A DNA stretch of 22,438 bases from Xanthomonas translucens pv. translucens DSM 18974 (GTDB lineage Bacteria > Pseudomonadota > Gammaproteobacteria > Xanthomonadales > Xanthomonadaceae). Where the stretch lies: positions 1 to 22,438 of the forward strand of contig NZ_CAPJ01000228.1 of assembly GCF_000331775.1 (NCBI RefSeq), read 5' to 3'. Under the pieces are notes generated by a model. That model worked only from the letters and a program-made list of their open reading frames with translations, was not told the origin of the DNA and did not search any database. Positions 5,617 through 13,322 of this stretch are shown here, piece after piece. Positions within the stretch are counted from its first letter, which is position 1; every line of letters begins with the position of its first letter. A program made the translations under genes and the position numbers.

Positions 5617-6525
<909 letters not shown>

Positions 6526-6536
6526 GGCTGCGGCCG

Positions 6537-6797
6537 ATGCGGCCAAACAGCGAACTGTTCCTGGTTCTGGGCTGGCTGTGGTCGGCGCCGCTGGCGTTCG
6601 GCTATTTCTGCGCCTGGTGGGCGCAGCAGCGCGGACGCAGCGCGGTGGGCTGGTTCCTGTTCGGATTCCTTTTGCTGCCGGTGGCTGGGCTATGGCTGCT
6701 GGCGATCAATGGCGACGACCGCGATGGCCGCGGCAAGTCGAAAGACAAATCGATTGGGCGCAGCGACCTGCTGGCGACCCGTAAGGACGTGATATGA
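6537..6797 (+). CDS. Small membrane protein between glyQ and glyS
   Basis: This is an 86-residue protein with two hydrophobic segments (about residues 7-28 and 37-57) joined by a short charged loop (QQRGRS). A hydrophilic, Lys/Asp-rich tail follows ([13 protein letters not shown]). I do not recognise a named family. It begins 11 bp after the glyQ stop, and its stop overlaps the glyS start by 4 bp (ATGA at 6794), so it is probably translated as part of the glyQ-glyS message. Its position argues that it is real; its function is unknown. Confidence 0.75.
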
Positions 6798-9034
6798 GCA
6801 TGCACCCCCTGCTGATCGAACTGGGTACCGAGGAATTGCCGGTCAAGGCGCTGCCGGGCCTGGCGCAGGCCTTGTTCGATGGTGTGATCGCCGGGCTGGA
6901 GAAGCGCGGCATCGCGGTCGAACGCGGCGACGCCAAGCCGCTGTCCACCCCGCGGCGGCTGGCGGTGCTGCTGCCGGGCGTGGCCGCGGAGCAGCCGGAG
7001 CAGCGCTCGGAAGTGCTCGGCCCCTATCTCAACATCGCCCTGGACGCCGACGGCCAGCCGACCAAGGCGCTGGCAGGCTTCGCCGCCAAGGCCGGCATCG
7101 ACTGGACCGCGCTGGAGCGCACCAGCGACGCCAAGGGCGAGCGCTTCGTGCACCGTGCGGTGACCGCGGGCGCGCAGACCGCCGCGCTGCTGCCGGAGAT
7201 CCTGCGCGAAGCGATCGCGGCGATGCCGATCCCCAAGCCGATGCGCTGGGGCGACCACGACTACGGTTTCGCGCGGCCGGTGCACTGGCTGGTGCTGCTG
7301 TTCGGCAACGACGTGGTGCCGGTGCAGCTGTTCGGCGTGCAGGCCGACCGGGTCAGCCGCGGCCACCGCTTCCTGCACGACGCGCCGGTCGCGCTGGCCC
7401 AGCCGGGCGACTACGTGGCCGCGCTGCAGGCGGCGCAGGTGCTGGTGGACCCGGATGCGCGCCGCGCGCGCATCGTCGCCGAGGTCGAACAGGCCGCGCG
7501 CCAGGCCGGCGGCAGCGCGCGCATCTCCGACGACAACCTGGAGCAGGTGGTGAACCTGGTCGAATGGCCGTCGGCGGTGCTGTGCCATTTCGAGCCGGCG
7601 TTCCTGGCGGTGCCGCAGGAAGCGCTGATCGAAACGATGGAGAGCAACCAGAAGTTCTTCCCGGTGCTCGACGATGGCGGCAAGCTGACCGAGCACTTCA
7701 TCGGCATCGCCAACATCATCTCGCGCGACGTGGCCGAAGTGGCCAAGGGCTACGAGCGGGTGATCCGCCCGCGTTTCGCCGACGCCAAGTTCTTCTTCGA
7801 CGAGGACCTCAAGCAGGGCCTGGTCGCGATGGGCGAAGGCCTGGCCAGCGTGACCTACCAGGCCAGGCTCGGCAGCATCGCCGACAAGGTGCAGCGCGTG
7901 GCCGCGCTGGCCGAGGCGATCGCGCCGCTGGTCGGCGTGGATGCCGCGCAGGCACGCCGCGCCGCTGAGTTGAGCAAGAACGACCTGCAGTCGCGCATGG
8001 TCAACGAGTTCCCCGAACTGCAGGGCATCGCCGGGCGCCACTACGCCAAGGCCGCCGGCGAGGCGGGCGAGATCGCGCTGGCGATCGACGAGGCCTACCA
8101 GCCGCGCTTCGCCGGCGACGACATCGCGCTATCAAAGCTGGGCAAGGTGCTGGCGATCGCCGAGCGTCTGGATACGCTGGCCGGCGGCTTCGCCGCGGGG
8201 TTGAAGCCGACCGGCAACAAAGATCCGTTCGCGCTGCGGCGCAATGCGCTGGGGTTGGCGCGGACGGTGATCGAGAGTGGGTTTGATGTGGATGTGCGCG
8301 GGTTGCTTGATCAGGCATTGGATGCTGTCGCGTTTGCAAAGAGCCGACAAAAGGACAAGCAGGCTGAAACCGCTGCCGCAACAGCACGCGCTTCGGGCGC
8401 GGATGCCAATGCTGTTCCGAACGTAGGTGGCACCACGCTTGCCGAGCTTCACGAAATCTTCGATTTCATTCTCGACCGCCTGCGCGGCTACTACGCCGAC
8501 AAGGGCGTGCCGGCGACGCATTTCAATGCCGTGGCGGCGCTGTTCTCAGTCGCGGCTGAAGCCGCTCCTACAGGGAGCGCGGCGGTTTCTGTAGGAGCGG
8601 CTTCAGCCGCGACCGCCACCCACGGATCGCTCTACGACTTCGACCGCCGCATCGAGGCGATCGGCCTCTTCGCCACGCTGCCCGAGGCCGAGGCGCTGGC
8701 TGCGGCCAACAAGCGCATCCGCAACATCCTGCGCAAGGCCGACGGCGCCATCCCGGCGCAGATCGACCCGACCCTGCTGCGCGAGCCAGCCGAAAGCGCA
8801 CTGGCCGAAGCGGTGGAAGCGGCGATCGTGGAAACCGATGGCGCGCTGCGTCAGCACGACTACGTCACGGTGCTGAACTTCCTGGCGCGGCTGCGGCCGC
8901 AGGTGGACGCGTTCTTCGACGGGGTGATGGTCAACGTCGAGGACCCGGGGATCCGCGGCAATCGCCTGGCCCTGCTCAAGCGCCTGGGCGACCGCCTCGG
9001 CAGCGTCGCCGCGATCGAGCATCTGTCGTCGTAA
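6794..9034 (+). CDS. glyS: Glycine--tRNA ligase beta subunit, with a translated REP insertion
   Basis: This is a 746-residue beta subunit, which binds tRNA-Gly and is required with GlyQ for aminoacylation. Family signatures are clear: [18 protein letters not shown] at the start, [57 protein letters not shown] sequence, [41 protein letters not shown] and the C-terminal LYDFDRR...[12 protein letters not shown]. The family is usually about 690 residues long, so this protein is some 50 longer. Two segments look inserted. One is a Lys/Ala-rich linker at about 515-550 with AT-richer, atypical codons. The other is an Ala/Ser stretch at 585-609, coded by two inverted REP palindromes (8549-8571 and 8591-8613). 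The frame stays open through both, so the gene is probably functional. Confidence 0.97.
8549..8571 (-). repeat. GTAG-type REP palindrome inside glyS (inverted copy)
   Basis: This 23-base element, read on the minus strand, begins GTAGGA and folds on the stem GCGGCT-TC-AGCCGC. It is an exact reverse complement of 8591-8613. In the glyS frame it codes for VAAEAAPT. It matches the GTAG-headed REP type known as SMAG in this family of bacteria. Confidence 0.92.
8591..8613 (+). repeat. GTAG-type REP palindrome inside glyS (direct copy)
   Basis: This is the partner of 8549-8571, identical in reverse complement, separated from it by 19 bases. It is translated as VGAASAAT within glyS. The same 23-base sequence occurs outside genes at 13187-13209 and, with one change, at 13300-13322. 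The family resemblance therefore comes from a mobile repeat and not from the gene. Confidence 0.92.
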
Positions 9035-9130: not shown

Positions 9131-9166
9131 GAACGAAGCCAGCGATCCCGCAGCCAAGTGAAAGTA

Positions 9167-13186: not shown

Positions 13187-13209
13187 GTAGGAGCGGCTTC
13201 AGCCGCGAC
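13187..13209 (+). repeat. REP element, GCGGCT-stem subtype (unit 1)
   Basis: It has a GTAGGA head and the stem GCGGCT-TC-AGCCGC, ending GAC. It is identical over 23 bases to the copy inside glyS at 8591-8613. With 13133-13155 it forms the first two-REP unit. Confidence 0.92.
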
Positions 13210-13299: not shown

Positions 13300-13322
13300 G
13301 TGGGAGCGGCTTCAGCCGCGAC
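13300..13322 (+). repeat. REP element, GCGGCT-stem subtype (unit 2)
   Basis: It has a GTGGGA head and the stem GCGGCT-TC-AGCCGC, ending GAC, and differs by one base from the glyS copy. It is 113 bases from the matching element of unit 1. The spacer between the two REPs of unit 2 also resembles that of unit 1 (GCACCCAGC and CCGCGCACCTCT shared), so the whole pair was duplicated. Confidence 0.92.

Follow-up and report, generated by a model that had tools for sequence, protein, structure and literature searches.

The glyS gene of the Xanthomonas translucens window, by which we mean the whole stretch of 22,438 nucleotides analyzed here, carries a pair of inverted REP palindromes that is read in frame at a site that is polymorphic (filled or empty) within Xanthomonas. 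The pair is probably an old insertion of GTAG-class REPs that has been kept as a tolerated passenger. About 30 residues upstream of the REP loop, the same protein contains a hypervariable segment, HVR1, which looks like the stronger and more surprising result of the two.

The REP pair of glyS and its filled and empty alleles

The gene (6794..9034, + strand) encodes the beta subunit of glycyl-tRNA synthetase, a protein of 746 aa with matches to PF02092 and DALR_1. GlyS is the beta subunit of the heterotetrameric bacterial GlyRS, with tRNA_synt_2f and DALR domains and the fold of 7yse/7eiv, and the named proteins closest to that of the window belong to X. translucens and X. graminis. A small, membrane-protein-like ORF (6537-6797) lies between glyQ and glyS and shares an ATGA overlap with the glyS start; it is variably present, with tblastn matches in only 10 among 106 loci.

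Both intragenic REPs are exact copies of GTAGGAGCGGCTTCAGCCGCGAC, a 23-mer with GTAG at one end of the palindrome, which is a feature of the GTAG REP superfamily. The left REP (8549..8571, - strand) is read in frame as VAAEAAPT and the right REP (8591..8613, + strand) as VGAASAAT, with a spacer of 19 nt between them (8572..8590, + strand). The original prediction of two 23-base REPs forming an exact inverted repeat in the glyS coding sequence is therefore confirmed, and each arm of the perfect inverted repeat is 25 nt long (8549-8573; 8589-8613). Four matches to GTAGGAGCGGCTTCAGCCGCGAC at up to three mismatches were found in the whole window and none in 100 shuffles, which rules out a chance palindrome. 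Two more copies of the glyS REP, one of them with 1 mismatch, form direct repeats at 13187-13209 and 13300-13322, some 113 nt from each other, and window positions 9160, 13127 and 13239 carry another type of REP-like repeat, GGGACTGAAGTCCCTCCCACAG with its variants.

The filled loop region between the conserved AVA and LYDFDRR (HVR2; 8537..8629, + strand, ends approximate) is short in empty-site relatives. From AV to DRR it measures 41 residues in the window and 16 at an empty site, a net in-frame gain of 25 residues. This is the gain that had been predicted, but the predicted position, residues 585-609, does not coincide with the REP pair itself, which by arithmetic codes for residues 586-607.

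The analysis started from the window and 106 loci, and GlyS was extracted from 100 of these 107 (L036, L039, L040, L050, L051, L053 and L066 were left out). Across the family, the stretch from NAV to LYDFDRR takes either a short or a long form. The long form of group 1 Xanthomonas is VAAEAAPT...VGAASAAT where both arms are intact, that is, one REP in each orientation, while X. arboricola (L005), X. cucurbitae (L003) and X. cannabis (L068) have VAPEGAPA...VGAHLGAT or a variant, which corresponds to another REP type. The site is empty in Stenotrophomonas and in part of Xanthomonas, and in the DNA read the empty site is clean, without a scar. A tree of 193 rows was built after dropping L101-L106 (second matches of loci already included), P0101 (partial), and L072 and L077 (short). 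Its 133 Xanthomonas rows, which take in all remaining related proteins including some without a source name, comprise 87 filled and 46 empty sites when scored by loop length. On a tree of the flanking protein, the filled and empty states require 22 changes in these rows (33-44 in 200 shuffles), a count that is inflated by recombination or by the weak resolution of this quick tree. The 60 non-Xanthomonas rows divide into 50 empty, 6 long and 4 unscored, so that 50 of the 56 scored rows are empty; this rules out the insert as the ancestral state of GlyS. A sequencing artifact is likewise ruled out by the occurrence of the filled form in many separate records.

The glyS pair is thus located inside a functional ORF and absent from homologues, as defined for intragenic in-frame REPs. 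The original prediction held that a mobile repeat had been inserted in frame and tolerated, and this is borne out: relatives have empty alleles that lack the insert residues, and the REP is present in multiple copies in kin genomes. The GlyS protein P0005 (JGI source) has a tandem duplication, TGSAAVSTGSAAVS, within the REP-derived loop, which shows that loop length is still changing.

In-frame GTAG REP dimers inside genes, with inserts of 20-30 residues, have been described before, including in X. oryzae tRNA synthetases, and the REPs present at roughly one position in recB differ between X. campestris and X. oryzae (Di Nocera et al., 2013, PMC3733652). An in-frame REP in a synthetase is accordingly less unusual than had been assumed. 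The glyS pair resembles these intragenic REPs in its GTAG-headed palindrome, its dimeric layout and its 20-30 in-frame residues, and the X. oryzae synthetase gene meant in that paper may or may not be glyS. Compared with the paper's passages on intragenic REPs, the glyS pair adds a filled/empty polymorphism, the decay of arms, a reach into Lysobacterales MAGs and an adjoining hypervariable cassette; insertions of this kind are known, and the reach of this one is unusual. Rickettsia palindromic elements, as described in the same paper, are also palindromic repeats translated in frame in likely functional proteins, but they are CGTC-class or longer elements and the likeness is one of behavior only (PMC3733652).

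REP families, recurrence at the same site and the fate of the insert

At up to two mismatches, the kin genomes G001, G005 and G010 carry 524, 147 and 395 copies of the REP, and the small-genome kin G014 and G002, whose sites are empty, carry 1 copy each. Three Xanthomonas genomes, G013, G015 and G019, have 204, 585 and 663 copies yet empty glyS sites, so REP load alone is no predictor of filling. A generic REP pattern has 39-272 copies in nine filled-site genomes and 0 in G014.

REPINs and BIMEs are inverted REP pairs mobilized by a RAYT. The inverted orientation and the short spacer give the glyS pair the same layout, and Y1_Tnp matches are found in G001 (one) and G005 (two, one of them below the cut-off), with none found in G014. 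The two stronger Y1_Tnp genes, which are the RAYT candidates of G001 and G005, adjoin REPs of types other than the glyS REP. The GGGACTGAAGTCCCTCCCACAG-type repeat of the window also adjoins the RAYT candidates of both genomes.

In G005, 45 exact REP copies are listed in 39 stretches including glyS. A heuristic combining open frame and GC3 scored one of the 38 other stretches as coding-like, with the REP in frame; it did not score glyS (L195), though this stretch is open on both sides, probably because HVR1 lowers its GC3. By this measure most copies are extragenic, which, like the high copy number, is a feature of the GTAG REP superfamily. The coding-like stretch is L188 (G005, near 3521839), which reads, from its sequence, as an E2-type acyltransferase; its REP sits in the Ala/Pro-rich linker and is accompanied by a degenerate copy in inverted orientation.

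The filled state extends beyond Xanthomonas. Six non-Xanthomonas rows are long, and five of them, all Lysobacterales MAGs (L042, L043, L052, L055 and L058, three of which carry the name Lysobacter sp.), contain inverted pairs of REP-like sequences that agree with the Xanthomonas pair in glyS position, orientation and frame. An apparent second, tandem REP-like unit is seen in L055. The sixth row comes from the Lysobacteraceae MAG L017; its loop, AALF...GSL, is long but contains no REP, which suggests that a longer loop may predate the REP.

How the insert behaves in the protein can be approached from structure. AlphaFold2 models of two GlyS proteins that differ in their cassette both place the REP peptide between two helices and give it a pLDDT below 50 (587-609 in the window, 597-619 in P0010). 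Mapping the insert on a structure, which had been proposed as a check, thus places residues 587-609 in a predicted disordered loop. An alignment to the E. coli GlyRS chain puts the REP insert between its residues 551 and 559 and HVR1 between residues 508 and 521, and the piece between them aligns weakly (2.4 bits). The HD domain of E. coli GlyRS covers residues 341-540 according to the domain assignment in PMC8464048, and the HD and anticodon-binding domains are described as shifting as a whole when tRNA binds (PMC9908026).

We consider it likely that the pair is a passenger of this loop. A GTAG-class REP pair would have entered glyS in frame in the ancestor of much of Xanthomonas or earlier, just beyond the end of the HD domain and at the start of the anticodon-binding domain, where it would be translated as a disordered loop rich in Ala, Ser and Thr. 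It could have persisted there because the loop accepts length change and because the frames used by both REP orientations are stop-free and bland. We infer a single old insertion followed by turnover toward the local REP type, in which glyS alleles would have lost or regained the insert by homologous recombination, and an insert that may have no function.

Two other histories have to be weighed against this one. REPs may have entered the same glyS position several times, each from the local REP family, at a site that acts as a target hotspot. The REP core at the site does vary by lineage (GCTTCAGC in group 1 Xanthomonas, CACCTGGG in L005, GCGCAAGC in L058 and ACGCAAGT in L052), and the right-arm types of L052 and L058 recur many times in their own genomes among the matches listed for these two. 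The right-arm 14-mers of L005 also recur within its own 14-kb locus, and the 22 filled/empty changes on the Xanthomonas tree point in the same direction. Recurrent insertion is nevertheless unlikely: Xanthomonas and the Lysobacterales MAGs share orientation and frame, which would not be expected of independent events, and they have in common the filled-side flanks AVAAL[FM]... and ...GSL. Shared orientation, frame and flanking residues favor one old insertion with later turnover.

Far less probable is a selected domestication, in which the pair would be kept because its peptide linker or the hairpin in its mRNA influences how GlyRS folds or how fast it is translated. The RNA of the window from 8540 to 8625 does fold into a single long hairpin of -61.9 kcal/mol (z -9.24; mean of 200 shuffles -33.2, sd 3.1), and the filled state is common among the Xanthomonas rows (87/133). 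However, among 21 Xanthomonas loci, 16 are filled, and under a strict match in which a single substitution counts as loss, both arms are kept in 3, the left only in 5, the right only in 6 and neither in 2; one or the other arm has thus decayed, exactly one being kept, in 11 of the 16. With both arms intact in only 3/16 filled loci, the hairpin does not look selected, and selection for it, as opposed to insertion and tolerance, is not supported. The drift of insert length and sequence, the coexistence of empty alleles within the genus and the predicted disorder of the insert argue in the same sense. A tolerated passenger remains our preferred account of the REP pair.

HVR1, a hypervariable segment upstream of the REP loop

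HVR1 is a hypervariable, GC3-poor cassette covering GlyS residues 497-555 (8282..8458, + strand), directly upstream of the conserved FDFILDR helix. In the 25 Xanthomonas rows with a long HVR1 (L088 repeats L001), mean pairwise identity per 20-aa block is 0.21, 0.17 and 0.45 in HVR1, against 0.77-1.00 in the other GlyS blocks and 0.63 and 0.75 in the blocks of the REP site. The control gene glyQ, which encodes the alpha subunit (5617..6525, + strand), never falls below 0.88 in any block of the same rows.

HVR1 could be parsed in 202 of 206 distinct GlyS strings, partial second copies included (L045, L046, L064 and L076 were unparsed). Its length ranges from 12 to 80 aa, and the 202 proteins fall into 54 HVR1 families when grouped by a mean identity of 45%, and into 38 when single linkage at 40% is used; the 193 rows without partial copies form 53. 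Replacement is seen between close strains, with four cassette families among the proteins named X. translucens or X. graminis. The GlyS of the window (P0001) is 99, 98 and 96% identical to P0010, P0011 and P0017 in the N-terminal part, and 34, 31 and 33% identical in HVR1. As a control, the ends of HVR1 were kept and its inner part was shuffled: 133, 57 and 91 of 200 shuffles reach the respective HVR1 identities, and the inner parts are therefore without detectable similarity.

Cassettes are also shared between genera. A Stenotrophomonas cassette (L015) is 49% identical to that of L083, a MAG cassette (L032) 60% to that of L003 and a Pseudoxanthomonas cassette (L057) 58% to that of P0013, with N-flanks at 80%, and 5 of the 53 families include both Xanthomonas and non-Xanthomonas rows. 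Within one family, length is nearly always fixed and the alignment mostly ungapped across genera. On the flank tree, the distribution of 25 cassette types over the 133 Xanthomonas rows takes 65 changes, where 24 would be the minimum and 200 shuffles give 86-100; this number rests on the quick tree, and recombination or weak resolution inflates it.

The composition of HVR1 differs from that of its gene. Across 47 loci whose HVR1 is 44 aa or longer, the GC3 of HVR1 is 0.571, compared with 0.891 for the body before it; HVR1 is lower than the body in 45/47, no body window of equal length is as low in 42/47, and no 60-codon window of glyQ from the same loci is as low in 45/47. Short forms (39 loci) have ordinary GC3 (0.857 vs 0.877). 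An order-level survey, in which 25 of 29 loci were parsed (L152, L160, L161 and L173 unparsed), found that, outside the family, HVR1 lies no more than 0.12 under the body in GC3 for 16 of the 18 loci parsed. The other two, from one genus of family f2, have dissimilar-looking HVR1s of 45 and 61 aa, with GC3 of 0.60 and 0.72 vs 0.78 and 0.84 in the body.

Long HVR1 forms are mostly under purifying selection within a family. In all 17 within-family pairs, two of which are short forms, pN is below pS in HVR1; dN/dS is 0.10-0.41 in 12 pairs and 0.56 in one (L001/L086), and could not be computed in 4 because pS was saturated. Of the 13 usable pairs, 10 show a dN/dS for HVR1 that exceeds the body value, which indicates a weaker constraint than in the body. 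HVR1 pS is also higher than body pS in 17/17 pairs (e.g., 0.75 vs 0.21 for the window and L084), an excess that the lower GC3 of HVR1 partly explains.

We looked for a source of the cassettes. With a 51-aa query, the cassette of the window was found in 5 of 247 family genomes, once in each and always within glyS, and no silent copy was found in these genomes. Pfam and PHROG scans of ten HVR1 cassettes at E values up to 1 gave no convincing match; two weak Pfam matches (E 0.26 and 0.12) and one PHROG match (E 0.13) were taken as chance. The window's HVR1 had no match in plasmids, and in viral contigs, where the search reached close relatives only, 296 pattern matches yielded 0 confirmed. The full-length GlyS protein, as opposed to HVR1 alone, matches 15 records of a phage collection, all at less than 60% identity.

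Balancing selection or weak constraint

HVR1 cassettes are replaced between close strains yet shared by different genera, they are constrained inside a family, and their composition is foreign-like; taken together, this makes HVR1 look like the product of long-term balancing selection on a housekeeping synthetase. Balanced cassette polymorphisms are known from surface antigens, toxin/immunity pairs and receptor loops. HVR1 resembles them in its unrelated alleles in near-identical backgrounds, its cross-genus sharing and its low GC3, but differs in lying within a cytosolic, essential aminoacyl-tRNA synthetase without a known partner. In the open-licence PMC literature, we found nothing relevant on a hypervariable region of glyS or on trans-species polymorphism of aminoacyl-tRNA synthetases.

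We tentatively propose, as a possibility with a less than even chance of being right, that the GlyS of Xanthomonadaceae carries in its tRNA-binding HD domain an exchangeable specificity cassette. Negative frequency-dependent selection would maintain many old alleles, which recombination at the conserved flanks would carry from strain to strain and from genus to genus. Such a system would most likely be driven by a putative antagonist that recognizes GlyRS at this place, either a phage or interbacterial factor, or else a binding partner. The REP loop, which lies 30 residues further downstream, would then mark the same tolerant, recombining segment. It is somewhat doubtful, though conceivable, that HVR1 is instead a weakly constrained loop with fast turnover whose diversity is not selected. 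Residues 521-560 are poorly defined in the second structural model (pLDDT 51-63), and the 12 to 80 aa range of lengths and the elevated within-family dN/dS would fit such a loop. Relaxed selection in a GC-rich genome can also lead to low GC3. Weak constraint accords poorly, however, with the nearly fixed lengths and mostly ungapped alignments of families across genera, with a pN well under pS in every pair and the dN/dS values given above, and with families common to several genera.

Aminoacyl-tRNA synthetases are textbook slow-evolving genes and are used as markers. At the REP site of glyS, alleles that are filled, in decay or empty form a natural series, and the site shows that an essential synthetase can hold an in-frame mobile repeat over long evolutionary times. 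If the cassette reading of HVR1 is true, this part of glyS would be an unsafe marker for typing and phylogeny in the family, and a balanced polymorphism shared across genera in a synthetase would point to an unseen biological conflict over translation.
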